A stretch of DNA of 64,000 bases from Nitrospirota bacterium (GTDB taxonomy: Bacteria; Nitrospirota; Thermodesulfovibrionia; UBA6902), in contig JACRHD010000018.1 of assembly GCA_016234115.1 (NCBI GenBank), positions 84,724 to 148,723 of the forward strand. Direction: 5' to 3'. Under the pieces are notes generated by a model, which saw nothing but the letters and a program-made list of their open reading frames with translations, made no database searches and was not told the origin of the DNA. Both the position numbers and the translations under genes were made by a program. Each line of letters begins with the position of its first letter. Positions within the stretch are counted from its first letter, which is position 1. Positions 46,174 through 61,718 of the stretch are shown piece after piece.

Positions 46174-46232
46174 AGGGGATTGGGGATTGGGGATTGGTTT
46201 AATTTTGAATCTTGAATTTTAAATTTTGAATT
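46174..46232. repeat. CCCCAAT and TTTTGAAT heptamer tracts at the cbiGH/BPL_N junction
   Basis: Three CCCCAAT units (coding strand) and four TTCAAAA-type units separate the cbiGH stop from the BPL_N-like coding sequence. They occupy the place where a ribosome site and start codon would be expected. Confidence 0.75.
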
Positions 46233-48183
46233 TCTTTTCATATCCCCTCGGGGTTATCAGGTAATCTCCCCACTTAAAGGTCTGCGAATTGCCGATTATC
46301 ACGGTTGTCTGCATATCTATGTCGTGACTTAGCATATCTTCGAGGTTCGTGATAACGACCTTTTCGTTCTCCCTCATTGCCGCCTTTACAAGCCCTACGG
46401 GGGTCCTGGAATTTCTGTAACCGGAAATAATTTCCTGCGCCTTCCGGATGTGCTTCTGCCTGCCTTTGCTTTTGGGATTGTAGATGACAATAACAAAGTC
46501 GGCCATGGCAGCGGCCTCGATTCTCTTTTCTATCTGTTCCCAGGGAGTAAGCCTGTCGGACAAACTGATGGTCGCAAAGTCATGCATGAGGGGTGCGCCG
46601 AGACGCGCCGCGCAGGCGTTCAGCGCGGAAATGCCGGGAATAACTTCAACGACAGGGTCCGAGGGTCCGAGGGTCCGAGGGTCCGAGGGAAGCGAATCTT
46701 TTCCCCTTGAACCCTTGAATCCTTGGACCCTTGAACCCTTCAGCAGTTCAAACACCAGTCCCGCCATCGCGTATATCCCGGGGTCGCCGCCGCTGATAAC
46801 GGAGACGGTCTTGCCGGACAGGGCCAGTTCAACGGCCTTCCTGCCCCTGTCAACCTCCTGCGTCATCCCTGTGGAAACGACTTCCTTATCTTTGATCAGG
46901 TCCGTTATCAGATCGAGATACGTTCCATATCCGACTATCACATCCGATTTCCGTATGGCCTCCTGCGCCCGTGGAGTAATATGTTCAAGCCCCCCGGGAC
47001 CTGTACCTACAATATAGAGTTTAGTAAGTGGTTGCGAATCTTGAATATTGAATTTTGAATATTCTTTTTTCTTGACTCTTAACTCTTGACTCTTAACTCT
47101 CTTCTTCCCCGCCACCGCCACCGTTACGTTCCCCGTCTTCTGCTTTGGGACGAGCAATTGATCAGTCCCTGCGGCAAGGAGGGCGGCGGGTTCAGCCACC
47201 GCGTAAGCGCCTGTGGCCTTAAACACGGCATTCGAACAGATGATCGCTGATCGCTGATCGCTGACTGCCGAATTCAGCTCCGCAGGCGTAAATGTCGTTA
47301 TCCTTAAATCATATTTCCCTGCAAATAAGATCAACCCCGGCTCACTGCCTTTTCTATCAAGCGTTGCGATGGAATGGATTGAGAGGAAGGACAGTTTGTT
47401 CTTGCGCAGGACCGTTTTAACGGCATCCTCTATTTCCTTTCCCGATGTCCCGCTGTTGCAGCCGATGCCGACTACAAGATTTTTAGGGCGCAAATAGAGT
47501 TTGGACTTCGGTAGGGGCGAGGTGACCTCGCCCTTACAGACAATTATCATGTCTGCCGATTCAGGACCATCAACGTTAATAAATGCATCCGGCAATTCAA
47601 TGCCGATATCCTGATCCACATAAACATTCAGCGCGCCGTTGTTCAGCAGTTTAGTGGATGTGTGAGACAGCATATTCCAATTTTCTATAACAAGCCTGTT
47701 TTCTTCCGCCCATAGATCTATGGAGGGCAGGTTGTTCACATCCGAAGCCGTTGTTATCACGGCATCCCCATTCAAAGAAGCGGCAATCTCTCTTGCAAGC
47801 ACATTCGCCCCGCCGAGATGCCCGCTCAAAAGACTGATGACGTGCCTGCCCTTTTCATCGAGCGCGACAACTGCCGGGTCGGTCTTTTTGTCCTTTATCA
47901 GAGGAGCTATCGTCCTGACAACAATCCCTGTCGCCATGATGAATATGAGGTTCCCGCATTCCGCCCACTGCCGGGGCAATTCATGAATTGCCCCGGCGGA
48001 TGTGAATTTAATAATCCGCGCACCGGGACAAAGCTCCGATATCTTTTGAGCAAGCCTGAGGCCGTTATTTGTTATATAGAAGATCGCCGTAGGGGCGAAA
48101 GGCCGTTCGCCCCCACGTCCGTGTCCTGTTTTTTTCTTCTTAACTCTTAACTCTTGACTCTTAACTCTGTTTCCTGTACTCAT
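46219..48183 (-). CDS. cbiGH: CbiG-CbiH fusion: cobalt-precorrin-5A hydrolase / C17-methyltransferase
   Basis: The N-terminal third is CbiG-like (FIMATGIVVRTIAPLI, HVISLLSGHLGGANVLA, then VVGIGCNSGTSGKEIEDAV). The C-terminal part is a precorrin-3B C17-methyltransferase domain (KLYIVGTGPGGLEHITPRA, SGGDPGIYAMAG, IPGISALNACAA). Together they carry out ring contraction and C17 methylation on the anaerobic cobalamin path. The 654-residue frame holds eight repeat segments, at residues about 5-15, 23-31, 62-71, 215-224, 305-314, 360-382, 481-509 and 650-654. These cover three palindromes and five heptamer arrays, none interrupting the frame. It overlaps cbiF by 23 bp. The N-terminal MSTGNRVKSQELRVK is itself mostly repeat. 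Confidence 0.88.
   Translation of the reverse strand: MSTGNRVKSQELRVKKKKTGHGRGGERPFAPTAIFYITNNGLRLAQKISELCPGARIIKFTSAGAIHELPRQWAECGNLIFIMATGIVVRTIAPLIKDKKTDPAVVALDEKGRHVISLLSGHLGGANVLAREIAASLNGDAVITTASDVNNLPSIDLWAEENRLVIENWNMLSHTSTKLLNNGALNVYVDQDIGIELPDAFINVDGPESADMIIVCKGEVTSPLPKSKLYLRPKNLVVGIGCNSGTSGKEIEDAVKTVLRKNKLSFLSIHSIATLDRKGSEPGLILFAGKYDLRITTFTPAELNSAVSDQRSAIICSNAVFKATGAYAVAEPAALLAAGTDQLLVPKQKTGNVTVAVAGKKRVKSQELRVKKKEYSKFNIQDSQPLTKLYIVGTGPGGLEHITPRAQEAIRKSDVIVGYGTYLDLITDLIKDKEVVSTGMTQEVDRGRKAVELALSGKTVSVISGGDPGIYAMAGLVFELLKGSRVQGFKGSRGKDSLPSDPRTLGPSDPVVEVIPGISALNACAARLGAPLMHDFATISLSDRLTPWEQIEKRIEAAAMADFVIVIYNPKSKGRQKHIRKAQEIISGYRNSRTPVGLVKAAMRENEKVVITNLEDMLSHDIDMQTTVIIGNSQTFKWGDYLITPRGYEKKFKI
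46654..46740. repeat. Intragenic tract in cbiGH (GTCCGAGG and CCCTTGA units)
   Basis: Four 8-bp units (GTCCGAGG) and four 7-bp units translate as KGSRVQGFKGSRG and DPRTLGPSDP, between SGGDPGIYAMAG and IPGISALN of the methyltransferase domain. Confidence 0.85.
47035..47103. repeat. Intragenic tract in cbiGH at the CbiG-CbiH joint
   Basis: AAGAGTT/AAGAGTC units (RVKSQELRVK) and TTCAAAA units (SKFNIQDS) form the linker between the two enzyme domains. Confidence 0.85.
47240..47268. repeat. Intragenic GATCGCT heptamer tract in cbiGH
   Basis: Four units, read as SAVSDQRSAII on the coding strand; the opposite strand would contain TGA. Confidence 0.8.
47511..47537. repeat. Intragenic palindrome in cbiGH (GTAGGGGCGAGGT type)
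   Basis: A 27-bp member of the intergenic palindrome family, read in frame as KGEVTSPLP. Confidence 0.75.
47970..47997. repeat. Perfect 28-bp palindrome inside cbiGH
   Basis: GCCGGGGCAATTCA is followed directly by its exact complement, 14 bp each arm with no loop, and is read in frame as AGAIHELPRQ. Confidence 0.8.
48089..48169. repeat. Palindrome plus heptamer tract at the cbiGH N-terminus and cbiF stop
   Basis: A GTAGGGGCGAAAGG palindrome (48089-48115) is followed by AAGAGTT-type units (48136-48169). In the cbiGH frame these read GRGGERPFAP and RVKSQELRVK. In the overlapping cbiF frame the same units give the stop TAA. Confidence 0.8.
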
Positions 48184-48931
48184 GCCTGAAATCCTTGTGA
48201 TAGAGCTTTGATTCTTTCCCCAATGAAACTTCCGACGCCTTCAATGCGTCGCCTATATAAATAAGCGCGGTCTTTCTGATGCCCGCTTTTTTGACCATCT
48301 CCCCGAGGTCCTTTAAAACGCCCCTGACTGCCCTTTCGTCCGGCCATGACGCCTTTTCAATAACAGCCACGGGCGTGTCCTCCGGATAACCCTGAAGCAG
48401 TTCTTCCCTGACCTTCTCTATCATGCCGGCACTCAGGAAGATCACCATCGAAGAGCGGTGTCTCGCAAGCTCCGAAAGTCTCTCCCCCTCCGGCACGGGC
48501 GTCCTGCCTTCCATGCGCGTAAAGATAACGGTCTGGCTTATCTCGGGAATGGTAAGCTCCTGCCCCAACAAGGCCGCTCCGGCGGAAGCTGAAGAGACGC
48601 CGGGGATTACCTCATACGGGATATTCAGTTGCCTGAGCCTTTCTATCTGTTCGGATATCGCGCTGTAGAATGCCGTATCGCCTGTGTGAAGCCTTGCAGT
48701 GACCTTCCCGCCTGAAGAGGCGTCCTTCATTATGCAGACAACTTCATCCAGCGTCATGCCTGACGAGTCATATATTTCCGCGCCGGCGCCCGAAAACACT
48801 TCAGGGTTGACGAGGCTCCCGGCGTATATGATGACGCCGGCCTTATCCAGAATTTTTTTCCCTTTAAGAGTTATCAGCTCGGGGTCCCCCGGACCCGCGC
48901 CGATGAAGTAGACTTTTGAATGTTCACCCAT
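48161..48931 (-). CDS. cbiF: Cobalt-precorrin-4 C11-methyltransferase
   Basis: CbiF methylates C11 of the corrin precursor. The 256-residue product shows the tetrapyrrole methylase fold: KVYFIGAGPGDPELITLKG, IYAGSLVNPEV, RLHTGDTAFYSAISEQ, VIPGVSSASAGAALLGQEL and the C-terminal GVLKDLGE. It overlaps the HD gene upstream by 8 bp and cbiGH downstream by 23 bp. Apart from its final codons (RKQS and stop), it carries no repeat. Confidence 0.92.
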   Translation of the reverse strand: MGEHSKVYFIGAGPGDPELITLKGKKILDKAGVIIYAGSLVNPEVFSGAGAEIYDSSGMTLDEVVCIMKDASSGGKVTARLHTGDTAFYSAISEQIERLRQLNIPYEVIPGVSSASAGAALLGQELTIPEISQTVIFTRMEGRTPVPEGERLSELARHRSSMVIFLSAGMIEKVREELLQGYPEDTPVAVIEKASWPDERAVRGVLKDLGEMVKKAGIRKTALIYIGDALKASEVSLGKESKLYHKDFRHEYRKQS

Positions 48932-49709
48932 TTTGCAGCCTTTCTGAAATATACCTGTTTATCACTTCCTCCACGTCGAGGATTTCTTTTGTCCGAGGCA
49001 GTATGTCCATAATCTTCTTTATATAATTATTCTCATGCAGCAGCCTTAATGATTCGCTGAAATGCATATCGAAGACCCAGGAGAGTTTCATCAGCCTGAA
49101 ATCATTTTCCGTCCGTATATTGGAATAGGACGCCACCTTACGGTCCATTATGCATGACAGCATGGTCGTGGAATATCCGGGGCTGTCGGGAACGCCCAAA
49201 GCCGTGGCTGAGGCCCTTTCCTCCACCGGACTTTCGTAGTATTCGACGAATACGCGATAAATATCTACCTTGTCGGCGTCCCTGATTAATTTCAGATACA
49301 GCCTGACATCTTCAGGCACGGGCGGTATCGCATAGGCGTTGTGAAACTTCACCGCGCTGATTATTATTTGCCGCTCATTTTCGGGAAGATTGCATAATAC
49401 ATTTTCATCCGCCAGGATACTTGATCCTAACAGGCCGTGATTTACCGAGTCCGCGTCCCTGAATGTTTTGTATTTCGCAAACTGCGGGAACCGCCCGAGG
49501 TCATGGAACAGGGCCACGGCCTCTGCGATCTTTGTCTCATTGCCGTCAAGCGACCCGGCCCCGGCAATCCTGACGATATTCCGGCACACATGATCGGTAT
49601 GCTCCACCTTGAGTATGATATTTCTCTGGTCCTTTGCGTCAGACAGGTAAAACGACCTGCTGAAGTCCGAAAACCATTGCCTGAAAAATTTCAGATCATT
49701 CTCAGTCAT
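48924..49709 (-). CDS. HD-domain phosphohydrolase in the cobalamin train
   Basis: The 261-residue protein has the HD metal-site set: EHTDHVCRNIVRIA (first His), VALFHDLGRFPQF (the HD), KFHNAYAIPP (third His), and RDADKVDIYR (final Asp). It is a metal-dependent phosphohydrolase of unknown substrate. It overlaps cbiL by 4 bp (ATGA) and cbiF by 8 bp, so it is translationally coupled to corrin-ring methylases, though no cobalamin step obviously needs it. Nucleotide-loop phosphatase work or turnover of a signalling nucleotide are possibilities. It has no repeat insertion. Confidence 0.8.
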   Translation of the reverse strand: MTENDLKFFRQWFSDFSRSFYLSDAKDQRNIILKVEHTDHVCRNIVRIAGAGSLDGNETKIAEAVALFHDLGRFPQFAKYKTFRDADSVNHGLLGSSILADENVLCNLPENERQIIISAVKFHNAYAIPPVPEDVRLYLKLIRDADKVDIYRVFVEYYESPVEERASATALGVPDSPGYSTTMLSCIMDRKVASYSNIRTENDFRLMKLSWVFDMHFSESLRLLHENNYIKKIMDILPRTKEILDVEEVINRYISERLQNG

Positions 49710-50487: not shown

Positions 50488-50547
50488 GGGGCAAGGGTCA
50501 GGGGTCACGGGGCAAGGGTAAAATCCCGGACCCCTGACCCTTGCCCC
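50488..50547. repeat. Inverted heptamer arrays at the cbiET 3' end
   Basis: The 19 bp at 50488-50506 (GGGGCAAGGGTCAGGGGTC) are exactly complementary to 50529-50547. The array gives the CbiET C-terminus ([10 protein letters not shown]...) and ends six bases before the cbiL start. Confidence 0.8.
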
Positions 50548-51865
50548 TTGCCCCTGTTATTATAAACACCGGGTTCAGCGCGCTCATGTGCCTTTTGCCG
50601 GCGATCACCTTAGAGCGCGAGACCGATACCTCGCTTATCTCAACAGCATAACCGTTCTTTTCAAGACCCTGCACTGCCTCATTCAGCGTTTCAATTGTGG
50701 TCGCGTTAATTACCACAGCGCCTGTTTCCATCCTTCCGGAAATAAGGGCAAGGACGGCATCCATCCTCCCGCCGCTGCCGCCGATAAAAACCCTGTCAGG
50801 CGAAGGAATGTCTTTTAAGACGTCCGGCGCCTCGCCTGCCGTTGTTTCAATATTCGTAATGTTAAACCTTTTTTGGTTTTCATTAATATTGCTCAACTGT
50901 TGCTCATCCTTTTCAACCGCAAAGACCCTGAGCTCAGGACAAAGCCGGGCCGCCTCAATCGACAGGGAGCCGGAACCCGCCCCGATGTCCCAAAGCACGC
51001 CTCTTTCAGGAAGACGTAATTTGTGTATGGCAACAGCCCTCACCTCGTCTTTTGTGATAAGGCCTCTTGAATGCTGAATCTCATCTTCCCTGAGACCGAA
51101 AATCGGTGCATGAGGGATGGAGGGATGGAGGGATGAATTGGGACCCCCTTCTCCACTTCCCGCCTTCCAGCCTTCTCCACTTCCTGCCTTCTTCACAATC
51201 ACCACCACATTCGGTTCCGCAAACGACATCGCCGCTATCTCCTCCGGCGTTCCCCTGATAATCTTTTCATCAGGATACCCGAGTCTTTCGCAAACGTACA
51301 TGACAAGTGACGAGTGACAAGTGATGAGTGACGAGAGGATCGCTTTCGCGATCTCGACCGGGTTATTTACTTTATCGGTAAGGGCGGCAATCTTATTATA
51401 TTTCGTCAACAGCCGGGGGACATCGTCTATCTCATATTCAGGGGCTCTCCTTTTTGACGGGTCAGGGCCTCCGTGAAGGCTTATCAGCAGGGCGTTGTTC
51501 GAGGTCTCCCCGATACGTGAAAACGCGACCTGGACGCTTGAGAGGTCAGGATAAACTTCCACCGCGTCCCTGCCTAACCTCTCTGTGACCATCCGTCCTA
51601 TGCCGAAAAACATCGGGTCCCCCGCGGCCAGAAGCGCAAGCTTTTTCTCTCTGTAGTTGTTCGCGATATAATCCAGCATTTCGTAAACACTGCCGTGTAC
51701 GATTATCCTGTCCCTGACCCGGTCATATTCCGCATAGCCCATAAACACCTCAAGCAGCCTCCTGTTCGTCAGGACCACTTCAGCCCCGAGCAAAGAGGCC
51801 GCCGCCTTGCCGTCAAGGGGCCTGAAGCCGATTCCTATGACATACACTTTATTCACTGTCTGCAA
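50498..51865 (-). CDS. cbiET: Bifunctional CbiE-CbiT (CobL-like) C5,C15-methyltransferase/decarboxylase
   Basis: The 455-residue protein fuses a CbiE tetrapyrrole methylase (KVYVIGIGFRPLDGKAA, LLAAGDPMFFGIGR, YPDLSSVQVAFSRIG) to a CbiT Rossmann methyltransferase (GVLWDIGAGSGSLSIEAARL, VFIGGSGGRMDAVL). Together they methylate C5 and C15 and remove the acetate side chain of ring C. In-frame repeat segments lie at residues about 177-188 (SSLITCHSSLV), 224-251 (KAGSGEGWKAGSGEGG...HPSIPH, at the domain joint) and 436-455. It overlaps cbiD by 17 bp. Confidence 0.92.
   Translation of the reverse strand: MQTVNKVYVIGIGFRPLDGKAAASLLGAEVVLTNRRLLEVFMGYAEYDRVRDRIIVHGSVYEMLDYIANNYREKKLALLAAGDPMFFGIGRMVTERLGRDAVEVYPDLSSVQVAFSRIGETSNNALLISLHGGPDPSKRRAPEYEIDDVPRLLTKYNKIAALTDKVNNPVEIAKAILSSLITCHSSLVMYVCERLGYPDEKIIRGTPEEIAAMSFAEPNVVVIVKKAGSGEGWKAGSGEGGPNSSLHPSIPHAPIFGLREDEIQHSRGLITKDEVRAVAIHKLRLPERGVLWDIGAGSGSLSIEAARLCPELRVFAVEKDEQQLSNINENQKRFNITNIETTAGEAPDVLKDIPSPDRVFIGGSGGRMDAVLALISGRMETGAVVINATTIETLNEAVQGLEKNGYAVEISEVSVSRSKVIAGKRHMSALNPVFIITGARGKGQGSGILPLPRDP
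51111..51192. repeat. Intragenic tract in cbiET at the CbiE-CbiT joint
   Basis: Three 8-bp GGATGGAG units followed by two ~19-bp CCTTCTCCACTTCC units, read as KAGSGEG repeats and SLHPSIPH. Confidence 0.8.
51300..51335. repeat. Intragenic GTGACGA heptamer tract in cbiET
   Basis: Five degenerate units, encoding SSLITCHSSLV on the coding strand. The opposite strand would read TGA. Confidence 0.85.
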
Positions 51866-53111
51866 TTATATCTCCATCATATGACACAAGATGAACGGAA
51901 ACCGGGACCCCGACGGTAATCAGCCCGGAATATTTCCCGGCAGCATTACAAACCTCCGTGAAGAGTTTCGAGTTTCTGGTTTCTGGTTTCGAGTTGAGGA
52001 CATCAAATATCTCCCGGGCCGTATTAAACTCCGAACTCCGAACTCTGAACTCCGGACTCAAGTCTTGCAAAAACTCAACTGCCTTTCTTATATCAATGGC
52101 CCCGAACCTGACATGCGTCTGCGGCGTCGCCATTGCAATTTTAACCATTTTGGCCCACTGGGCGCAAAGGTGGATTTTGCTGAAGCTGTGTTTTTTGGCC
52201 TCCTTCAGGGAGAATTCAAGGTAATCTCCCATGAGGACATAACATTCCCCGGGGAGTTTATATTTTTTCATGTGGGCCTTCTCAGAGGTCCGGCCGGCGG
52301 AAAGGACGATCTCCTGTTGTCCCGTTGCCCTTGCGACATCCATCGATGAAGTGATAGTCGCTGTCCAGGCCTCTGAAGAAACCGGTTTTACTATCCCCGT
52401 CGTGCCCAGAATAGAGATGCCCCCGATTATACCGAGCCTGTTGTTCAACGTCTTTTTCGCCAGCTCCTCGCCGTTGGGGACGGAGATAGTTATTTCAAGA
52501 GCTTGGAGTTTGGAGTTTAGAGTTTGGAACCGGGAGTTGGCTTTTTCTAAACTCTTAACTCTTGACTCTTGACTCTCTTCTATCGCTTCCATCACCGCTT
52601 CCCTGATCATCTGCCTTGGCACAGGATTAATCGCCGCTTCGCCGACAGGGACGGAAAGCCCCGGCTTGGTAACAATTCCAACACCTTTTCCGCCCCGAAG
52701 AAAGAGTTTAGAGTTAAGAGTTATGAGTTTAGTGTCTGGTTTTGAATCTTGAATACTCAATTTTGAATCTTCTTCTTTCTTAACTCCTGACTCTTGACTC
52801 TTTACTCTAACTTCGGCCACTATCTCCGCGCCGTTCGTGACATCAGGGTCATCGCCCGCGTCTTTGATTACTGACGCTACGGCAGAACATTCATTCCCGT
52901 CAATTTTGAATTTTGAATTTTGAATTTTGAATATTCTTCTGCTGCCGTCGGGGAACGGGATTTCCACTTCAGTGACGAGTGACGAGTGACGAGTAACGAG
53001 TAAAACCGCCGCCTTTGCCGCAGCCGCAGCGCACGCCCCTGTCGTAAACCCGGACCTGAGGTTTCCCTTTTTCCCTCTGGCCCCCGGACCCTGGACCCCG
53101 GACCCTTTCAT
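51849..53111 (-). CDS. cbiD: Cobalt-precorrin-5B C1-methyltransferase with seven repeat segments
   Basis: CbiD methylates C1 on the anaerobic path. Core motifs are LRSGFTTGACAAAAAKAA, KDAGDDPDVTNGAEIVAEV, GKGVGIVTKPGLSVPVGEAAINPVPR, ISVPNGEELAKKTLNNRLGI and GTTGIVKPVSSEAW. The 420-residue length is about 50 above the usual. Repeat-coded segments lie near residues 1-12 (GSGVQGPGARG), 37-47 (LLVTRHSSLVT), 59-70 (FKIQNSKFKI), 101-136, 178-203 (QESRVKS..., FQTLNSKL), 350-362 (EFRVRSSEF) and 371-385 (LNSKPETRNSKL). All lie between conserved blocks. The stop of cbpB is one base from its start. Confidence 0.9.
   Translation of the reverse strand: MKGSGVQGPGARGKKGNLRSGFTTGACAAAAAKAAVLLVTRHSSLVTEVEIPFPDGSRRIFKIQNSKFKIDGNECSAVASVIKDAGDDPDVTNGAEIVAEVRVKSQESGVKKEEDSKLSIQDSKPDTKLITLNSKLFLRGGKGVGIVTKPGLSVPVGEAAINPVPRQMIREAVMEAIEESQESRVKSLEKANSRFQTLNSKLQALEITISVPNGEELAKKTLNNRLGIIGGISILGTTGIVKPVSSEAWTATITSSMDVARATGQQEIVLSAGRTSEKAHMKKYKLPGECYVLMGDYLEFSLKEAKKHSFSKIHLCAQWAKMVKIAMATPQTHVRFGAIDIRKAVEFLQDLSPEFRVRSSEFNTAREIFDVLNSKPETRNSKLFTEVCNAAGKYSGLITVGVPVSVHLVSYDGDIIADSE
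51958..52061. repeat. Two intragenic tracts near the cbiD C-terminus
   Basis: GTTTCTG/GTTTCGA units (51958-51998) and GAACTCC/GAACTCT units (52025-52061), read as LNSKPETRNSKL and EFRVRSSEF. Confidence 0.75.
52502..52578. repeat. Intragenic heptamer tract in cbiD
   Basis: GAGTTTA/GAGTTTG units then complementary AACTCTT/GACTCTT units. They are read as FQTLNSKL and SQESRVKSLEK, with AAA and CAA at the codon that is TAA in the basic unit. Confidence 0.8.
52702..52809. repeat. Intragenic composite heptamer tract in cbiD
   Basis: AGAGTTA, TTTTGAA and AACTCCT units in series over 108 bp, coding RVKSQESGVK, SKLSIQDS and LITLNSKL. Confidence 0.85.
52901..53001. repeat. Two intragenic heptamer tracts near the cbiD N-terminus
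   Basis: TTTTGAA x5 (52901-52935, coding FKIQNSKFKI) and GTGACGA x4 (52971-53001, coding LLVTRHSSLVT), flanking the DGSRR segment. Confidence 0.85.
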
Positions 53112-53112
53112 T

Positions 53113-54459
53113 TTAATACCGATACTCCATCGCCATCTGGTTTAGTGAGTCTTTGCGAAGAAGATACTTCACCTTGTCCTCAGAGATCATCCTGAACGCC
53201 TGTTTGATAATCTCTTTATAGAACTCGCAGAACGCTGCCTTCTGGTACATATCGCCCCTTGCGTGCATCTCAGCCGGACAGGGTGAGCCGCAGATGTGTC
53301 TGAAGTCGCAGGTGTCGCACTCTTCTATCTTTTCAACCATCCTCTCACGGATCAGTTTGAACGGCCTGGATTTCATCGCGGAGTCAATCGAGGTCCTGAA
53401 GATGTTGCCTCCCGAGAATTCCCTGAACCCGATGAACTCACCGCATGGGACCATCTCGCCGTCTGCGGTGACGGTAAGAAACGTCCTTCCGCCGCCGCAC
53501 GGAGAAATATCGCACATCATGCGCCTTGCAGTAGGCGATATGATCGCAAGGACCACATTGGCAAAGTTGCCGATGACGATCTGATGCCTCGTCTTCTGCG
53601 AAAGCCCCACCGCGGTCTCGACCGCCTTCATCATGTTTTTCGCAAATACCATGTCGTCCGGCTTCAGACTCCATGAACGTCTTTGCGTAAGCCTTACGGG
53701 GTTTAAAAGCATGCACGGGACTTCCTTCTTGTGCAGGAATTTCACAAGCTCCGAAAGTTTATCGACATTGAATTTCGTGACCGTCGCTATTACATTCAAC
53801 CCCTCATATCCCTTAAACCAGTCAAGGGCCCGGACCGCCTTTTTAAAATTGCCTTCCCCCTTTACCGAGACCCGCGAGCGGTTGTTGACGGCAGCGGTCG
53901 CCGCGTCAAGGGAGATGCCCACTCCGACCCTGTATTTCATCATAAAGTCAGCGTCTTTTTTCTCAAGTAAAAGCGCGTTGGTCTGAATGCCGAAGAGCAT
54001 CTTGTCGTGATACTTTTTGATCCCCTCAAAGATAATGTCCTTTGCAAGAAGCGGCTCGGCAGCGTGAAACACGACGACCGGTTTTTTCTTCGTTGCTTTG
54101 AAATGTTCAGCGACTTTAGAAAGGGTCATATCCAACTGTTCCCGCGTCATCTGCGTGCCGTTTTTGCGGATCTTCGCCGGGATGTAGCAGTAAGGACAGT
54201 TGGCATTGCACCTGTCCGTAGGGTCGATGTACACGCAGTTGAGCGGCTCGTTGAACCTGAAGTTTTTCATCTCCGTGTCAAGGTGTTCTCGCTCCTTTTT
54301 GTAGAGAGTGATCAAATCGTCGGGCAGCATGAAGTCCCCGTTGCTGCGGGGCAGCAGGCCCCAGAAGATATTCTCGGGGTCCAGCGTCAGCTTCCAGTCC
54401 GAATCGATGTTTAAAAACGAAAGTCCGCGATCAATAACAGCCTTTGAATTCTTGCTCAT
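53113..54459 (-). CDS. cbpB: CbpB-like SPASM radical SAM peptide-modifying enzyme
   Basis: The 448-residue protein has the cluster motif DRCNANCPYCYIPAK (near residue 85), the AEPLL variant of the GGEP region (FHAAEPLL), and a C-terminal SPASM-type cysteine series: CDISPCGGG, VPCGEFIGF, CDTCDFRHICGSPCPAEMHARG, FCEF. SPASM enzymes often modify ribosomal peptides. A small peptide gene lies 191 bp upstream, and both sit inside the cobalt-transport/cobalamin train. From memory this is the arrangement of the 'CbpA/CbpB' pair; I could not check it against a profile. AGGAGA precedes the ATG, and there are no repeat insertions. Confidence 0.72.
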   Translation of the reverse strand: MSKNSKAVIDRGLSFLNIDSDWKLTLDPENIFWGLLPRSNGDFMLPDDLITLYKKEREHLDTEMKNFRFNEPLNCVYIDPTDRCNANCPYCYIPAKIRKNGTQMTREQLDMTLSKVAEHFKATKKKPVVVFHAAEPLLAKDIIFEGIKKYHDKMLFGIQTNALLLEKKDADFMMKYRVGVGISLDAATAAVNNRSRVSVKGEGNFKKAVRALDWFKGYEGLNVIATVTKFNVDKLSELVKFLHKKEVPCMLLNPVRLTQRRSWSLKPDDMVFAKNMMKAVETAVGLSQKTRHQIVIGNFANVVLAIISPTARRMMCDISPCGGGRTFLTVTADGEMVPCGEFIGFREFSGGNIFRTSIDSAMKSRPFKLIRERMVEKIEECDTCDFRHICGSPCPAEMHARGDMYQKAAFCEFYKEIIKQAFRMISEDKVKYLLRKDSLNQMAMEYRY

Positions 54460-54510
54460 TGTTTCTCCTTTTTAAAAAAGATTATTACTTATTTTTTATC
54501 ATTGTCCCGA

Positions 54511-54610
54511 GGATTCCCCTCTTTGGAAAAGAGGGGTGAGGGGAGATTTTTCGAATTTAAAATCTGTTTTCAAAATCCCCCCTCACCCCCCTTTTACAAA
54601 GGGGGGGAAT
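54511..54610. repeat. CCCCTCTTTG/CCCCCTTTAC palindromic repeats between cbpA and cbpB
   Basis: Two hairpin units, CCCCTCTTTGGAAAAGAGGGG and CCCCCCTTTTACAAAGGGGGG, are joined by complementary GAGGGGAGATTTT / AAAATCCCCCCTC arms, making one large foldback. Confidence 0.7.
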
Positions 54611-54613
54611 AAT

Positions 54614-54642
54614 ACAGGGGCGATCCGCATGACCGCCCCTGC
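54614..54642. repeat. ACAGGGGCGATCC palindrome just after cbpA
   Basis: A member of the GGGGCG palindrome family, eight bases past the cbpA stop. Confidence 0.6.
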
Positions 54643-54650
54643 GCAAGCTG

Positions 54651-54785
54651 TTACAATGGCATCTTTTTCTTCGGCACGTCGCCGTACATCACGAAGTGCG
54701 TAAGTCCGTTGGCTGTCTTTGCGCATTTCATATGAAATGAAATGGCGGCTTTTGTCTTCTTTTCAGCCTTCTTTGCCTTGTTCAA
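54651..54785 (-). CDS. cbpA: Small peptide, putative radical-SAM-modified precursor (CbpA-like)
   Basis: A TTG start at 54783-54785 preceded by AAAGGAGGTGA gives a 44-residue peptide: a lysine-rich leader-like part (NKAKKAEKKTKAAISFHMK), one cysteine, then AKTANGLTHFVMYGDVPKK and a MPL end. The very strong ribosome site argues that it is translated. Its position between cbiO and the SPASM radical SAM gene, same strand, fits a ribosomally made, enzyme-modified peptide. A longer frame upstream starting in a dispersed repeat is unlikely. The modification and function (for example metal binding) are unknown. Confidence 0.65.
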   Translation of the reverse strand: MNKAKKAEKKTKAAISFHMKCAKTANGLTHFVMYGDVPKKKMPL

Positions 54786-54828
54786 TATTTTCACCTCCTT
54801 TCTGTCATGCAACTCGGTGAACAAATGC

Positions 54829-54942
54829 TCCGTCATGCCCGCATGTCGTAAGCGGGCATCCATGGTTCGACAAGCTCACCATGACAAGCTGTGTCACCCT
54901 GAGCCTGTCGAAGGGTGGATTCCCGCTCAAGGGACTGCGGGA
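54829..54942. repeat. Cluster of CATGCCCG/ATTCCCGC and TTCGACAAGCTC repeats
   Basis: The stretch contains CGTCATGCCCGCATG...GCGGGCATCC, then GTTCGACAAGCTCACC with its partner CCTGAGCCTGTCGAAGG, then GGATTCCCGCTC...GCGGGAATGA. These are three nested or adjacent hairpin repeats between cbiO and cbpA. Confidence 0.7.
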
Positions 54943-54961
54943 ATGATGCGGTTTTCTTACT

Positions 54962-55804
54962 CTAATTTTTGAATTTTTCATTTTGAATGGCCTTCAATAT
55001 CTCTCTCCTCGCCTCACCGATAGTGAGCGGAATACGGTCAAAATTCATCTTGTCCTCATGCTTTAATTTGTAAAGAAGCTCCGCGATATGCGGCAGCCTC
55101 AGCTTGATATTCGCCATGTCTTCCGGCGCGTCAAAGACCTCTTCCGGCGTGCCGCCCCTCGTGATTCTTCCCTTGCTCAGGATATAAAGACTGTCGAGAA
55201 AGACCGGCACGAGGTCCACGCTGTGGGTCGCCATGATAACGGTCACGCCGTTTTCCTTATTCAATTTCCAAAGCAGCTTCATCATCCTGTACTCGCCCAT
55301 GGGATCAAGCCCGGCAGTGGGCTCATCGAGCAGGAGCGTTTCATGCCCCATTGCAAGAAGCCCGGCGATACACGCGCGTTTTCTCTGGCCGAAGCTCAGG
55401 TTGTGGACGGACTTCTTCTCAAGCCCGGAGAGCTCGACCTCTTTCAGCGCATTCAGCACGCGCCTTTCAACTTCCTTTGCGTTAAAGCCCATATTCATCG
55501 GACCGAATGCCACGTCCTCAAAGAGCGTCGGCGCGAAGAGCTGGTCATCCGGGTTCTGAAAGACAAGCCCGACCTTTTTATAAATCTCCTTCGGCGACAT
55601 AGCGCTGATATCGACACCGCTTAAACGGATTTGTCCCTCAACTCCCTTAAGCAGCTTGTCCATGGCACGAAGCAGAGTTGTCTTGCCTGAACCGTTGGCC
55701 CCTAACAACCCGACAAACGCCCCCTGCCTCACCTCAAGGTTTATCCCGTCGAGGGCCCTTGTGCCGTCGGGGTATCTGTATGAAACATTCTTGACTGAAT
55801 ACAT
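54962..55804 (-). CDS. cbiO: Energy-coupling factor cobalt transporter ATPase
   Basis: The 280-residue ABC ATPase has Walker A LLGANGSGKTTLLRA, Q-loop VFQNPDDQLFAPT, signature HNLSFGQRKRACIAG, Walker B TLLLDEPTAGLDP and switch ATHSVDLVP. The FAPTLFEDVAFGP segment is typical of ECF/Cbi-type ATPases. With CbiM and CbiQ it forms a cobalt importer, encoded just downstream of cbiM and cbiQ. Repeat-free inside. Confidence 0.93.
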   Translation of the reverse strand: MYSVKNVSYRYPDGTRALDGINLEVRQGAFVGLLGANGSGKTTLLRAMDKLLKGVEGQIRLSGVDISAMSPKEIYKKVGLVFQNPDDQLFAPTLFEDVAFGPMNMGFNAKEVERRVLNALKEVELSGLEKKSVHNLSFGQRKRACIAGLLAMGHETLLLDEPTAGLDPMGEYRMMKLLWKLNKENGVTVIMATHSVDLVPVFLDSLYILSKGRITRGGTPEEVFDAPEDMANIKLRLPHIAELLYKLKHEDKMNFDRIPLTIGEARREILKAIQNEKFKN

Positions 55805-57126: not shown

Positions 57127-57920
57127 AATGCGGCCTCCTCTGCTTTTATCACGCCGAACTTTACCAGCAGGTCAGACCTTCTTTTAAAGATCAGTTTGAC
57201 CATGCCGGCAGTCATTGCGCCCTCTACTATGCCGAGCGGCAACTGCGTAGGTACAAACGCAATGAGTATCTTTGTAAACAAAGGCAGGAACGGTTCGTCT
57301 CCCATGATGCCCGACGCAAGTTCGACGGATGTAGTGAAATAAATGGCCCAGTCGGAAACAAGGCCGGCAAAAAATGCCGAGAGCGCAAGTCCCGCCCTCA
57401 TCTTTCTCAGGACTTTGAAAACCGCAATACCCGCAAAAGCCCCCGTCACCCCCATTGAAACAACGTCCGCTCCCCACGTGCTCAGGCCGCCGTGAGCAAA
57501 AAACAGGGCCTGGACCAGAAGGGCCACTCCGGTTATCAGGACGGTGATCGAGGGGCCGAGCAGTATCGCCGGGATCGCCGTGCCGCCGGGATGGGAGCAT
57601 GTGCCCGCAGTCGGCACCGGTATCGGCATCAGGGAAATAACAAAGACAATGGCAGCCATGAGCCCGGCGAGCGGCTTGAATGAGAGGTCGATCTTTGAAA
57701 GCTCTCCAAGCCTCTTCATCCCATACCAGACAAAAGGGACCGCAACAGCAAACCACACAGCGGCCCAGTTCATGGGCAGTATGCCTTCTGAGATGTGCAT
57801 GGCTGCGGCATCAGTAACAAGTGACAAGTAACAAGTGACAAGTAATACAGTAACGAGTGACGAGTAACGAGTGACTGGCAGGAAATTTTGAATTTTGAAT
57901 TTTGAATTTTGAATTTTCAT
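57123..57920 (-). CDS. cbiM: Cobalt ECF transporter substrate-capture protein CbiM with repeat-coded N-terminus
   Basis: CbiM is the membrane S-component that binds Co2+. From residue 41 the protein is canonical: MHISEGILPMNW, PTAGTCSHPGGTAIPAILLGPS (second metal site), ALFFAHGGLSTWGADVVSMG and LPLGIVEGAMTAG. In studied family members the metal is held by the N-terminal Met-His. Here the frame starts 40 residues earlier, and nearly all of that extension (FKIQNF, LPVTRYSSLVT, LLVTCYLSLVT) is written by heptamer arrays at 57811-57918. It looks like a cleavable signal ending AAA before MHIS. The alternative start at MHIS has no ribosome site. Confidence 0.9.
   Translation of the reverse strand: MKIQNSKFKIQNFLPVTRYSSLVTVLLVTCYLSLVTDAAAMHISEGILPMNWAAVWFAVAVPFVWYGMKRLGELSKIDLSFKPLAGLMAAIVFVISLMPIPVPTAGTCSHPGGTAIPAILLGPSITVLITGVALLVQALFFAHGGLSTWGADVVSMGVTGAFAGIAVFKVLRKMRAGLALSAFFAGLVSDWAIYFTTSVELASGIMGDEPFLPLFTKILIAFVPTQLPLGIVEGAMTAGMVKLIFKRRSDLLVKFGVIKAEEAAL
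57811..57918. repeat. Heptamer tracts coding the CbiM N-terminal extension
   Basis: About six GTGACGA/GTAACAA units and five TTTTGAA units, 108 bp, stop-free in the cbiM orientation only. Confidence 0.9.
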
Positions 57921-58915
57921 TTTATTTCATCCGCCATTTTCAACAACGCGTTCACTATCGCAGCAGCTACGGGCGAGCCGCCTTTCCTGCTGATGTTCGT
58001 TATGAAAGGGAACCTCTGCTCCGCAAGCAGGGCCTTCGATTCCAGCGCTTTTACAAAGCCGACGGGAACGCCGACAACAAGTTTAGAGTCAAGAGTTAAG
58101 AGTTCAGAGTTAAGAAAAAGATCTATTACCTTCAACAATGCAGTCGGGGCATTGCCGATGGCGATGATTCCGATGTTTTTATTTTCTTGCAGCGCGTGTT
58201 CTATGCCCGTCTCCGCTCTTGTTTTTTTTCCTGACTCTTGACTCCTGACTCTTGACTCTTGTATTGCGCAGACCACTTTCCCTCCCCATCTCTCAAGCAG
58301 CCGTTTGTTAATTCCCGCTCTCACCATCTCGACGTCCGTCAGGATGTCCTTGCCTGCTCTAATCGCGGCAAGGCCCGCTTTTACGGCGTCGGGGTGAAAC
58401 ACAAGGCTGCTCCTGAATTCAAAATCAGCGGTTGTATGGATCACACGTTTCACAATCGGCAATCTGTCTTCAGGAATATCGCCCAGGTCCGCTTCTTCAG
58501 AGATTATTCCAAAGCTCCTCTTTTCAATTTCTTCAGGCTTCATTCCCGATGCCGCATAGATCCTCTCAAGCACCACCTGCGCCATCTTGCTGTGAATGCC
58601 TAACGGCTCCGTGTAGATGAACTCCACATGAGGGAACATCCCAGCCGCCTCTTTTACGATAGCCGGGATGTCTGTAGTGACGTGCATCCCGCTGCTCAGG
58701 AAGTACGGATGTATGACGACCTTTTTGGCGCCGGCATTTGCACAGCCCTTGATGGCCTCCATTATGTCCGGCTGCGCAAATTGCAGATACGCGATGCGTA
58801 CACAACTGTCGCCGCACCCCGGATGTATGGTGCTGTGCAGCAGCCTTGCCACGTTTTCAAGATTGTTTGCGTCCTTTTTAGGACTGCCGTGTCCTGCAAG
58901 CAGAATGATTTCCAT
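57917..58915 (-). CDS. CbiX-CbiC fusion: sirohydrochlorin cobaltochelatase / precorrin-8 methylmutase
   Basis: Residues 1-125 are a CbiX-type short chelatase (ILLAGHGSPKKDAN with the metal histidine, PYFLSSGMHVTTDI). Residues about 130-332 are CbiC (EKRSFGIISEEADLG, VKRVIHTTADFEF with the catalytic histidine, GKDILTDVEMVRAGI, GNAPTALLKVIDL). So the first (cobalt insertion) and a late (methyl shift to cobyrinate) ring step are joined in one chain. Heptamer insertions lie at residues about 218-228 (QESRVRSQESG) and 267-278 (LNSELLTLDSKL). It overlaps cbiA by 38 bp and cbiM by 4. Confidence 0.9.
   Translation of the reverse strand: MEIILLAGHGSPKKDANNLENVARLLHSTIHPGCGDSCVRIAYLQFAQPDIMEAIKGCANAGAKKVVIHPYFLSSGMHVTTDIPAIVKEAAGMFPHVEFIYTEPLGIHSKMAQVVLERIYAASGMKPEEIEKRSFGIISEEADLGDIPEDRLPIVKRVIHTTADFEFRSSLVFHPDAVKAGLAAIRAGKDILTDVEMVRAGINKRLLERWGGKVVCAIQESRVRSQESGKKTRAETGIEHALQENKNIGIIAIGNAPTALLKVIDLFLNSELLTLDSKLVVGVPVGFVKALESKALLAEQRFPFITNISRKGGSPVAAAIVNALLKMADEIK
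58081..58115. repeat. Intragenic AGAGTTA heptamer tract in the CbiC domain
   Basis: Five units coding LNSELLTLDSKL on the minus strand; the TAA of the basic unit is replaced by GAA and AAA. Confidence 0.85.
58230..58261. repeat. Intragenic GACTCTT/GACTCCT heptamer tract in the CbiC domain
   Basis: Four units coding QESRVRSQESG; the potential TAA codons read CAA. Confidence 0.85.
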
Positions 58916-60338
58916 GATGCTCCTTTATATAATCAATAAATATTTTCGCAATCTCCCTGTTACTTCCAAAATGCGTGTGAACATAACTGCCGATAGTGTT
59001 CTTTATCCTGTAGCCTTCGTCAGGCAGCAAGTTCCCGGAACCGTCTCTGACGGAATAAATTGACTGCTGACTGCTGTCTTCAATTTCCGAATAATGAAAC
59101 TCATGCCCTCTGATTACGGAGTCTTTCCTGCCGAGTATGCAATCCTCTTTCAAATAAATTTCCCTGTAGCCCAGCCTGGAAAGCCTGTCTTTCATCTGTG
59201 TATCAAAAGGAAAGATTCCAGCCATCTCCCACAGCTTCGATTTGCCGTCTTCCATACTCCATATTCCATTTGTCAGATACATGAACCCGCCGCACTCGGC
59301 ATACACCGGCATATCGCCGGCTGCAAATTGTTTTATCGAATCCAGCATCATCCCGTTCGCCGACAACTCCTTTGCATAAAGCTCAGGATACCCCCCGCCG
59401 ATGTACAGCGCGTCAACGCCGTCAGGAATTTTGCTGTCGGACAGAGGGCTGAACGTAATGATTTCCGCTCCGGCGTCTCTTAGCAAATCAAGATTGTCTT
59501 CATAATAAAAGCAGAACGCCCTGTCGCGGGCAACGGCAATGCGTACCGCAGGGTCCGGGGGGCAAGGGGCAATAGGGTAACTTGTCTTCTCCTTTGACCC
59601 CTGACCCATGACCCTTGCCCCTTTCAGTAATTCTTTCACATCAATATACTTCAAAACCACATCCGTCAACTTCTGAATCGCTTCATCGCCAAGGGGGTTC
59701 TCTTCTGCTGTCGCCAATCCAAGATGCCTGTGCGGGACCTCAAAATCAATGTCCCTCGGCAGATAACCGAGCACAGGCGCATCGCGTACGCTGCCTTTAA
59801 GCCGGTTGAAATGGTTCTCGGAGGCTACACGGTTGAAGATGACGCCGGCAAAGGAGAGTTTAGAGTTTAGAGTTTGGAGTTCAGACTCCGGGAACTGCGC
59901 TTCCCGGTCTTTTCTGTTACTAAACTCTGAACTCTGAACTCTGAACTCTTTAAACCCCTTCACGACCGCGCCCGCGCTCTCTGCCATCCCGTATGCGTCA
60001 ACGACAAGTATGACCGGCAGGTCCAGCGTTGACGCCAGATAAGCAGTGCTCATGTTTCCGTCATACAGTCCCATTACTCCTTCGACAACCGCCATATCAG
60101 CGTCCGCCGCGTTCCTTTTATAACACTGCGCAGCATATTCTATTCCGCACATCCACAGATCGAGATTTCTCGACGGTCTGCCGGTGATCAGTTTATGCAG
60201 CCCCGCGTCGATAAAATCAGGCCCCGCCTTGAAGGACTGGACGGTCAGTCCTTTCTTCTTTAACGCGGCAAGGATGCCGAGGGTGACGGTCGTCTTGCCG
60301 CAGCCGCTGTGTGTTCCCGCTATGATTATGCCTTTCAT
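58878..60338 (-). CDS. cbiA: Cobyrinate a,c-diamide synthase
   Basis: CbiA amidates the a and c side chains of cobyrinate using glutamine and ATP. The 486-residue product has the P-loop IAGTHSGCGKTTVTLGIL, FKAGPDFIDAGLH, VVEGVMGLYDG, and the glutaminase domain with YIGGGYPELYAKEL and PVYAECGGFMYL (nucleophile cysteine), then HEFHYSE. Repeat insertions lie at residues about 129-161 (EFRVQSSEF..., LQTLNSKLSF), 239-263 (GARVMGQGSKEK, YPIAPCPPDP) and 420-426 (SSQQSIYS). Confidence 0.93.
   Translation of the reverse strand: MKGIIIAGTHSGCGKTTVTLGILAALKKKGLTVQSFKAGPDFIDAGLHKLITGRPSRNLDLWMCGIEYAAQCYKRNAADADMAVVEGVMGLYDGNMSTAYLASTLDLPVILVVDAYGMAESAGAVVKGFKEFRVQSSEFSNRKDREAQFPESELQTLNSKLSFAGVIFNRVASENHFNRLKGSVRDAPVLGYLPRDIDFEVPHRHLGLATAEENPLGDEAIQKLTDVVLKYIDVKELLKGARVMGQGSKEKTSYPIAPCPPDPAVRIAVARDRAFCFYYEDNLDLLRDAGAEIITFSPLSDSKIPDGVDALYIGGGYPELYAKELSANGMMLDSIKQFAAGDMPVYAECGGFMYLTNGIWSMEDGKSKLWEMAGIFPFDTQMKDRLSRLGYREIYLKEDCILGRKDSVIRGHEFHYSEIEDSSQQSIYSVRDGSGNLLPDEGYRIKNTIGSYVHTHFGSNREIAKIFIDYIKEHHGNHSACRTRQS
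59550..59622. repeat. Intragenic tract in cbiA at the synthetase-glutaminase joint
   Basis: GGGGCAA units and complementary ACCCCTG/ACCCTTG units, coding IAPCPPDP and ARVMGQGS. Confidence 0.8.
59856..59950. repeat. Intragenic tract in cbiA (GAGTTTA / GAACTCT units)
   Basis: Four GAGTTTA/GAGTTTG units and four complementary AACTCTG units flank a short unique piece. They code LQTLNSKL and EFRVQSSEF within the synthetase domain. Confidence 0.8.
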
Positions 60339-60412: not shown

Positions 60413-60480
60413 CCCCTTAATCCCCTCTTGTTAGAGGGGAAACTTCCCCCTTTGAAAAAGGGGGATTAAGGGGGATTTTG
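60413..60480. repeat. CCCCCTTTGAAAAAGGGGG repeat at the cobD 3' end
   Basis: Two hairpins (TCCCCTCTTGTTAGAGGGGA and CCCCCTTTGAAAAAGGGGG) code the last residues of CobD (IPLNPPFSKGEVSPLTRGD) and its TAA. Confidence 0.75.
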
Positions 60481-61718
60481 CCAAAAATATCTTTTAACTC
60501 CTTTAATAAGCTGCTGTTGTGCCTGCGCGATTTCACTGCGACCCTTATATATGAATTATTCAACCCCCTGAAATTTGAACAGTCCCTGACAAGAATGCCT
60601 TTATCTCTCAGTCCCAAAACTATACCCCCCTTTGACAAAGGGGGGCTGGGCTCCCGTTGCCGCAAAGCATCGCAACGGGAAGCGGGGATTTTCAACAAGT
60701 AATAATTTGCCCCGGACGGATAAAACTCCATTCCCAGTCTCGTGAAGCCGCTTTCGAGAAAATGTTTCTCCTTTTTCATCAACCTGAAAGTCCGCCGCGA
60801 ATATTCATGATCCTCAAGCGCCGCAACCGCAGCCTTCTGCGCAAGACCGTTGACAGTCCAGGGTTCCCTGAAGTGTTTTATCCTTTCAATCAGTTTTTCA
60901 TGAAACACGGCGTACCCGATCCTCAATCCCGTCAGGGCATAAAACTTTGTCATGGAACGAAGGACTATCAGGAACGGGTTGTCCCGGACTTCAGCAATCA
61001 CCGATTCCGCAGGGCAAAAGTCGATAAACGCCTCGTCAACAACGAGGAAGCACTTCGCTTCTCTCGCCTCTTCAGCGATCCTCAGCACCTCCCCGCGCTT
61101 CAGCAGATGTCCGGTCGGGTTGTTGGGATTACACAGGAAAGCCATGTTGCATGGCATTGCGGAGTCAGGTTTGGAGTAGGGGCGACCCGCCGGGTCGCCC
61201 GTACAGAGCTTTGAATTTTGAATCTTGAATTTTGAATTTACTTTCATCGCTGATATAAATTCATCGGGAATAATTTCAAAGTTGTGTTCTTTTCTTAACT
61301 CATAACTCTGAACTCTTGACTCTGAACTGATTTTACATGCGCGCTCATATTCCGAAAACGTCGGCGCGGGGACCAGGACCCTCTTCGGCCCCAGGGCGCG
61401 GGGAATGAGATAGATGAGCTCAGTGCTGCCGTTGCCGCAGATGATCGTCTCCGGGTCTGTGTCATGGCACTTCGCAATCCTTTCTCTCAGCGCCTTCGTA
61501 TCAGGGTCCGGATAATTCACCAGGCAGTTCAGATTTTTTCTGATTACATCCTTCACCTTCTCCGAAATCCCGAGCGGGTTGATCGACGCGCTGAAATCGA
61601 CCAATCTGCCTTCGGACACTCCCAGTTCTTCCGCAATCCTGTATATATTCCCGCCGTGGGCATAAGAGTCAAGAGTTAAGAGTTTAGAGTTAAGTGAAGC
61701 GGATTTTATTTGCAGCAT
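60417..61718 (-). CDS. cobD: Threonine-phosphate decarboxylase (aminotransferase fold)
   Basis: CobD makes (R)-1-amino-2-propanol phosphate, the nucleotide-loop linker. Pyridoxal-phosphate fold-I motifs are present: VDFSASINPLGIS, ICGNGSTELIYLIPRA, AFLCNPNNPTGHLL, VVDEAFIDFCP, and the lysine region SMTKFYALTGLRIGY. Repeat-coded parts are at residues about 8-18 (LNSKLLTLDS), 130-142 (SESRVQSYELR), 160-181 (SKFKIQNSKL, CTGDPAGRPYS), 343-365 (REPSPPLSKGG) and 413-433 (C-terminus). At 433 residues it is clearly longer than the usual ~360. It overlaps cbiB by 13 bp. Confidence 0.9.
   Translation of the reverse strand: MLQIKSASLNSKLLTLDSYAHGGNIYRIAEELGVSEGRLVDFSASINPLGISEKVKDVIRKNLNCLVNYPDPDTKALRERIAKCHDTDPETIICGNGSTELIYLIPRALGPKRVLVPAPTFSEYERACKISSESRVQSYELRKEHNFEIIPDEFISAMKVNSKFKIQNSKLCTGDPAGRPYSKPDSAMPCNMAFLCNPNNPTGHLLKRGEVLRIAEEAREAKCFLVVDEAFIDFCPAESVIAEVRDNPFLIVLRSMTKFYALTGLRIGYAVFHEKLIERIKHFREPWTVNGLAQKAAVAALEDHEYSRRTFRLMKKEKHFLESGFTRLGMEFYPSGANYYLLKIPASRCDALRQREPSPPLSKGGIVLGLRDKGILVRDCSNFRGLNNSYIRVAVKSRRHNSSLLKELKDIFGKIPLNPPFSKGEVSPLTRGD
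60622..60688. repeat. Intragenic palindromes in cobD
   Basis: CCCCCCTTTGACAAAGGGGGG is followed by CCCGTTGC...GCAACGGG, read in frame as SRCDALRQREPSPPLSKGG. Confidence 0.75.
61176..61239. repeat. Intragenic palindrome plus TTTTGAA array in cobD
   Basis: A GTAGGGGCGACCCGCC palindrome (61176-61204, coding TGDPAGRPYS) joined to four TTTTGAA units (61210-61239, coding SKFKIQNSKL). Confidence 0.85.
61293..61329. repeat. Intragenic AACTCTG heptamer tract in cobD
   Basis: Five units coding SESRVQSYELRK. Confidence 0.8.
61665..61695. repeat. Intragenic AGAGTTA heptamer tract at the cobD N-terminus
   Basis: Four units coding SLNSKLLTLDS just before the conserved YAHGGNIYRIAEELG start of the enzyme. 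Confidence 0.85.

Follow-up and report, generated by a model that had tools for sequence, protein, structure and literature searches.

A short lysine-rich peptide gene and the adjoining gene of a SPASM radical SAM enzyme, located inside a B12 gene cluster of a Nitrospirota bacterium, were identified as the pair cbpA and cbpB. The reading we favour, at slightly less than even confidence, is that cbpAB encodes a ribosomal precursor and its SPASM maturase within the corrinoid regulon, and that the product would bind corrinoid cobalt in the cell. The analysis was based on a 64,000-nucleotide stretch of contig JACRHD010000018.1, hereafter the window, and on a GTDB genome scan that returned 77 loci, of which 76 are CbpB homologues (L090 is not). 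The original prediction of a 44-residue, Lys-rich peptide with one Cys, a TTG start and a Shine-Dalgarno sequence, placed beside a SPASM radical SAM enzyme between cbiO and cbiD, was borne out, with all of these genes on the same strand (Table 1).

Table 1. Features of the cbpAB region, in positions of the window.
Feature	Position	Strand	Evidence or remark
cbiO, ECF cobalt transporter ATPase, immediate upstream neighbour	54962..55804	-	profile match
cbpA Shine-Dalgarno AAAGGAGGTGA	54791..54801	-	from sequence; perfect; 8-nt spacer after GGAGG
cbpA, 44-aa precursor peptide MNKAKKAEKKTKAAISFHMKCAKTANGLTHFVMYGDVPKKKMPL	54651..54785 (stop included)	-	TTG start; homologues beside CbpB in nearly all other loci
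CbpA conserved core, residues 16-36 SFHMKCAKTANGLTHFVMYGD	54678..54740	-	alignments
cbpA-cbpB spacer	54460..54650	-	two strong hairpins: 12-bp stem at about 54615-54641 and a longer palindrome
cbpB, 448-aa SPASM radical SAM enzyme	53113..54459	-	TIGR04163 506.5 bits; Pfam PF04055 and PF13186
cbiD, cobalt-precorrin-5B C1-methyltransferase, immediate downstream neighbour	51849..53111	-	TIGR00312 338 bits

The window enzyme is a full member of the CbpB family. It matched the whole TIGR04163 model (rSAM_cobopep; positions 10-426 of 428) with 506.5 bits at a cut-off of 375, and no difference breaking membership was found. Within the family, it falls into the bacterial B12-operon branch and not into the family f14 branch (700+ bits). 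In the same phylum, a different CbpB/CbpA branch was seen at L092 (G021:C273) and L091 (G030:C52), scoring 704-708 bits, with a CbpA ending in GTGLSHYILMDKK and no B12 genes alongside; it resembles the Planctomycetota pair.

The radical SAM motif CxxxCxxC of CbpB is made up of C84, C88 and C91, and the SPASM cysteines are C316, C321, C339, C381, C384, C390, C394 and C411. Across 72 CbpB sequences, the radical SAM cysteines together with C316, C321 and C339 were invariant, and C381, C384, C390, C394 and C411 were conserved in at least 90%. Comparison of the AlphaFold model (pLDDT 90) with solved structures revealed CteB (TM 0.70; 5wgg/5why), anSME (TM 0.83 by target), ChlB and TigE as nearest folds; PapB, DynA and anSME were the nearest sequence families. 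The N-terminal 70 residues are modelled as three strands and one long helix. A Pfam search of the enzyme sequence gave no RRE/PqqD match, and the N-terminal domain, judged by its predicted secondary structure, would not seem to be a complete RRE.

The assignment to CbpA/CbpB, for which an HMM search had been proposed as a check, thus held in full for the enzyme and in part for the peptide. The latter lies outside the curated CbpA model TIGR04164 (cobo_pep, 25 aa; cut-off 35 bits), which gave no match to it in a direct genome search even at E ≤ 10, and its searches against Pfam and NCBIfam returned no matches. Under the same model, the relatives from archaea and Planctomycetota reached 20-50 bits, those from Omnitrophota 12.6 and those from Magnetobacteriaceae 14.7. 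The window peptide nevertheless shares with TIGR04164-type CbpA the core [YF]-x-x-x-C-x(2-7)-G-L-[TS]-H-[FY] in a short peptide immediately adjoining CbpB; judged by this core motif and by synteny, it is clearly a CbpA homologue that the model missed. It differs by having no detectable score, a Lys-rich N-terminal extension and the 12-residue tail MYGDVPKKKMPL; extension and conserved tail characterise the bacterial CbpA branch. Archaeal CbpA is mostly 25-29 aa long and starts one to a few residues ahead of the core strand, which leaves no room for a leader.

The window peptide contains 11 Lys among its 44 residues, and its single Cys is residue 21. In the cross-domain alignment of bacterial and archaeal CbpA, C21, G27, L28 and H30 were invariant, with T or S at residue 29 and F or Y at residue 31. 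A natural variant from outside this alignment, the CbpA of L068 (4495-4626), has its core Cys exchanged for Gly (SYRLKGAKTSNGLSHFV).

Lack of conservation of the peptide frame beside CbpB homologues, which would have spoken against the original prediction, was not observed; the frame is conserved there: a small ORF with the CbpA core precedes CbpB in nearly every locus having enough readable upstream DNA, mostly with a strong Shine-Dalgarno sequence in bacteria. No such ORF was found upstream of CbpB in L027 and L055, and in L026, L045 and L064 this region is cut by contig ends. Among 148 genomes of the phylum, CbpA occurs in 11, all of which also have CbpB (full in nine, cut by contig ends in G054 and G132), and in none of the CbpB-less ones; G016 has a contig-edge CbpB fragment only. 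Across 52 bacterial peptides whose cores have the same length, the core gave a mean pS of 0.82 and a mean pN of 0.09 (ratio 0.11), with 0.14, 0.06 and 0.53 differences per first, second and third codon position, the third exceeding the second about 8-fold. Between the window and L017, 38.5% synonymous and 0% non-synonymous differences were counted in the core. On these comparisons the 44-aa frame is almost certainly translated, and a chance ORF was ruled out by the pN/pS ratio together with the strict co-occurrence with CbpB.

Folding of the cbpA-cbpB spacer yielded an MFE of -85.3 kcal/mol (z -7.6). Hairpins are present in the spacer at other bacterial loci as well and absent at archaeal ones; a scan of the spacer for T-run terminators found none. 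The hairpins possibly serve as an attenuator or mRNA stabiliser, which would yield an excess of precursor over enzyme. A short ORF with a strong Shine-Dalgarno sequence, followed in bacteria by strong hairpins, could also be read as a regulatory leader, with cbpA as a translational attenuator for cbpB and not as a substrate gene. This is highly improbable, since SPASM enzymes of the CbpB kind act on adjacent peptides and the CbpA protein is under purifying selection; the leader was rejected because the amino-acid core is kept across domains, including the archaea, where the hairpin is absent.

We strongly infer that CbpA is the substrate of CbpB. For a docking model, the L039 read-through of CbpA, linker and CbpB was used, with stops read as Gly so that one chain holds both proteins. 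In this chain, CbpA segment 14-35 was the sole long peptide or linker stretch above pLDDT 50 (blocks of 74 and 66), and a strand was formed at CbpA Y19-C23, equivalent to F17-C21 in the window. The C-terminal tail of CbpB lacked order when the window enzyme was modelled alone and was a confident strand in the L039 chain, different proteins being compared here. The model hints that the CbpA segment S-[YF]-x-x-K-C may dock on CbpB by strand addition.

In SPASM radical SAM fold and in sequence, CbpB is alike to PapB and to the CteB/SCIFF (ranthipeptide-type) maturases, CteB being the thioether-forming SCIFF maturase. Because of this resemblance to CteB and PapB, the foremost candidate for the CbpA cross-link is a Cys thioether, albeit a tentative one that may well be wrong; a His/aromatic cross-link or Cys oxidation are the alternatives, and analogy indicates the nature of the cross-link only weakly. 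CbpA has one Cys, whereas the substrates of these maturases have repeated Cys-x(n) units, and it lacks the Asp or Glu at +4 of the Cys that is typical of PapB substrates. The likeness to anSME extends to an identical eight-Cys SPASM layout and, putatively, to action on a Cys in a peptide; however, the putative substrate of CbpB is a dedicated peptide and not a sulfatase, no sulfatase is encoded nearby, and CbpA does not contain the anSME motif C-x-[PA]-x-R.

PqqA/PqqE and MftA/MftC, of which PqqA gives PQQ and MftA gives mycofactocin, likewise combine a precursor of very small size with a SPASM enzyme encoded next to it and an intracellular metabolic theme, whereas CbpAB comes without further maturation genes and is tied to corrinoid genes. 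By analogy, the pair would resemble a ranthipeptide/sactipeptide-type precursor and maturase, or PqqA/PqqE in size, minus the other genes of those systems. CbpA might then be processed into a small peptide-derived cofactor for a corrinoid-related redox step, e.g. Co(II) to Co(I) reduction. The 25-29 aa archaeal peptides are short like PqqA, the L085 peptide ends directly after the core (GGLTHFV), recalling the processed MftA C-terminus, and the patchy distribution around one metabolic theme is that described for mycofactocin (PMC3023750). Such a cofactor is nonetheless clearly unlikely: the pair is not accompanied by a second maturation enzyme, a peptidase or a partner dehydrogenase, and most lineages also conserve the region C-terminal of the core, which would be needless for a tail that is discarded.

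The genes around cbpAB belong to B12 synthesis. On the minus strand of the window, the order is cbiA, cbiX-cbiC, cbiM, cbiN-like, cbiQ, cbiO, cbpA, cbpB, cbiD, cbiE/T, cbiL, an HD protein, cbiF and cbiG/H, with cobD and cbiB also farther upstream of cbpAB; past the window end, the same-strand run continues with cbiP, cobC, cobS, cobT and cobU. An Rfam search of the window alone gave no match, because the riboswitch sits outside: a cobalamin riboswitch (RF00174, 91.7 bits) was detected at 6808-7007 of L102 (minus strand), on the same genome contig (C65) and about 4.1 kb beyond the window end. It heads the cobU-cobT-cobS-cobC-cbiP-cbiB run that leads on the same strand into cbpAB. L087 has a cobalamin riboswitch too, immediately ahead of the series cbiX-cbiC, cbpA, cbpB. 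With the riboswitch heading its own gene run and the co-directional B12 genes, cbpAB of the window is a predicted member of the B12 (corrinoid) regulon.

Counted by inspection, 58 of 63 bacterial loci have B12 genes next to the pair, and at least six gene orders occur (cbiO, cbpAB, cbiD; cbiG/H, cbpAB; cbiB, cbpAB, cbiA; cobC, cbpAB, cbiX; cobS, cbpAB; and cbiX-cbiC, cbpAB). One archaeon has cbpAB followed by cobT, and no recognised B12 neighbour was found at the other 12 of 13 archaeal loci, nor at L067, L074-L076 and L091/L092. When the order shifts, it is the corrinoid-synthesis and salvage genes that are kept as neighbours, not the cobalt transporter.

Several further features of these clusters were recorded. 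An HD-domain-like protein of 261 aa (window 48924-49709, minus strand), without an NCBIfam match at 1e-10, lies inside the B12 cluster and is kept in 16 CbpB loci. Fused B12 genes are located on the minus strand at 57917-58915, 50498-51865 and 46219-48183 of the window; the cbiX-cbiC fusion was established by profile matches, and the cbiE/cbiT and cbiG/cbiH fusions were read from length and sequence only. Short repeats (RVKSQELRVKKK, SKFKIQNSKL, SSLVTRHSSLVT) occur within several B12 enzymes (window 51849-53111, 46219-48183, 58878-60338 and 60417-61718), as if small dispersed repeats had been inserted in frame, and similar ones lie between genes at 54800-54960. In L050, the slot of the missing CbiD is filled by CobF (7837-8613; TIGR02434, 307 bits), an aerobic-route enzyme within otherwise anaerobic-type Nitrospirota B12 clusters; in the same slot of L039, L043, L044 and L089, CobF was seen only as a weak CbiL-like match. 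The supposition that CbpAB needs CbiD was rejected, several carriers being without CbiD.

The original prediction had tied the pair to cobalt handling. We know of no cobalt delivery protein for the anaerobic B12 route. For the aerobic route, CobW is described as a specific cobalt delivery protein (PMC7689651). Mature CbpA could be the anaerobic counterpart of CobW, a Co(II) chaperone or intracellular chelator that takes over the metal from CbiMNQO and hands it to the CbiX/CbiK chelatase. In most Nitrospirota loci, cbpAB comes directly after cbiM-cbiN-cbiQ-cbiO, in L087 and L101 it comes directly after the cbiX-cbiC chelatase gene, and the CbpA core offers an invariant Cys and His. However, in Omnitrophota the pair is flanked by cbiB and cbiA and is remote from the transporter, several carriers gave no CbiM match, and there are B12 genomes without the pair. 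In two sister Omnitrophota MAGs, L068 and L069, cbpAB follows cobC-cobU-cobT-cobS; the L069 operon reads btuFCD-cobC-cobU-cobT-cobS-cbpA-cbpB and also has a TonB receptor. CbiC, CbiD and CobQ were not found in either of these draft genomes, and CbiM was absent from one and a 39-bit partial match in the other, so that these salvage-only carriers are without the chelation branch and also without a convincing CbiM. Should complete genomes bear this out, survival of the pair beyond cobalt chelation and ring synthesis would imply a job on corrinoids already made. The Co(II) chaperone is, on this evidence, somewhat unlikely, and B12 ring handling is supported more than cobalt uptake as the context of cbpAB. 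The tie to cobalt handling in the original prediction was thus supported only in part. One of the two salvage-only carriers, L068, is also the source of the Gly-for-Cys variant; the Cys may be dispensable, or this copy may be decaying.

The suggestion of a metallophore, as a secreted product, fared poorly. Across the loci compared, no conserved exporter or peptidase was found beside cbpAB, which argues for cytosolic action of the product, and the archaeal peptides are leaderless. The precursor-plus-maturase layout is typical of RiPPs in general, and CbpA could on that ground be a secreted RiPP, either a bacteriocin or an extracellular metallophore. We regard this as very doubtful, given that neither an exporter nor an immunity gene or leader peptidase is conserved alongside, that the core shows no hypervariability and that the pair lies within a B12-riboswitch gene run; a secreted bacteriocin was rejected because of the near-invariant core and the missing exporter.

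CbpB homologues were obtained from Nitrospirota, Omnitrophota, Nitrospinota, Planctomycetota, Archaeoglobales and other archaea. As the carriers are represented by draft MAGs, a gene missing from them may reflect an assembly gap. Within the phylum, acetyl-CoA synthase (ACS; PF03598) was detected in each of the nine carriers with full-length CbpB versus 66 of the 148 background genomes, an association (Fisher p 5e-4) that is confounded by phylogeny. Overall, ACS was found in 33 of 42 carriers. The nine carriers without it and the many ACS genomes without the pair weaken the view of CbpAB as a general ACS marker. Some Nitrospirota, including the closed genome G083, have genes for both B12 and ACS and lack CbpAB, which implies that the pair is accessory and required for neither.

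In the favoured reading of a corrinoid-regulon precursor and maturase, reduced and SAM-loaded CbpB would bind the conserved CbpA strand S-[YF]-x-x-K-C, abstract a hydrogen in the core C-x(2-7)-G-L-[T/S]-H-[F/Y] and install a cross-link, most likely a thioether or other side-chain type involving Cys21. The modified peptide would stay intracellular and act whole, its conserved Cys/His pair ligating corrinoid cobalt, or Co(II)/Co(I), in late assembly, salvage or delivery to corrinoid-using systems, for example acetyl-CoA synthase/corrinoid iron-sulfur. We place moderate confidence in intracellular corrinoid handling by mature CbpA. That the mature peptide binds the corrinoid itself, as a peptide ligand or chaperone for salvage, finishing or delivery to low-potential enzymes such as acetyl-CoA synthase, is possible rather than probable. 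To our knowledge, no genetically encoded, radical-SAM-modified peptide partner of B12 has been known.

A literature search on CbpA/CbpB and TIGR04163/TIGR04164 found no paper in the library consulted; so far, the two have been named as NCBIfam models, and their function has apparently never been studied. New here are the bacterial CbpA branch, which the existing model TIGR04164 overlooks, the cross-domain core motif, the link to the B12 riboswitch and the salvage-only carriers. Together, they would turn a "cobalt-associated peptide" into a testable claim on how corrinoids are handled by anaerobes, among them many users of the acetyl-CoA pathway.
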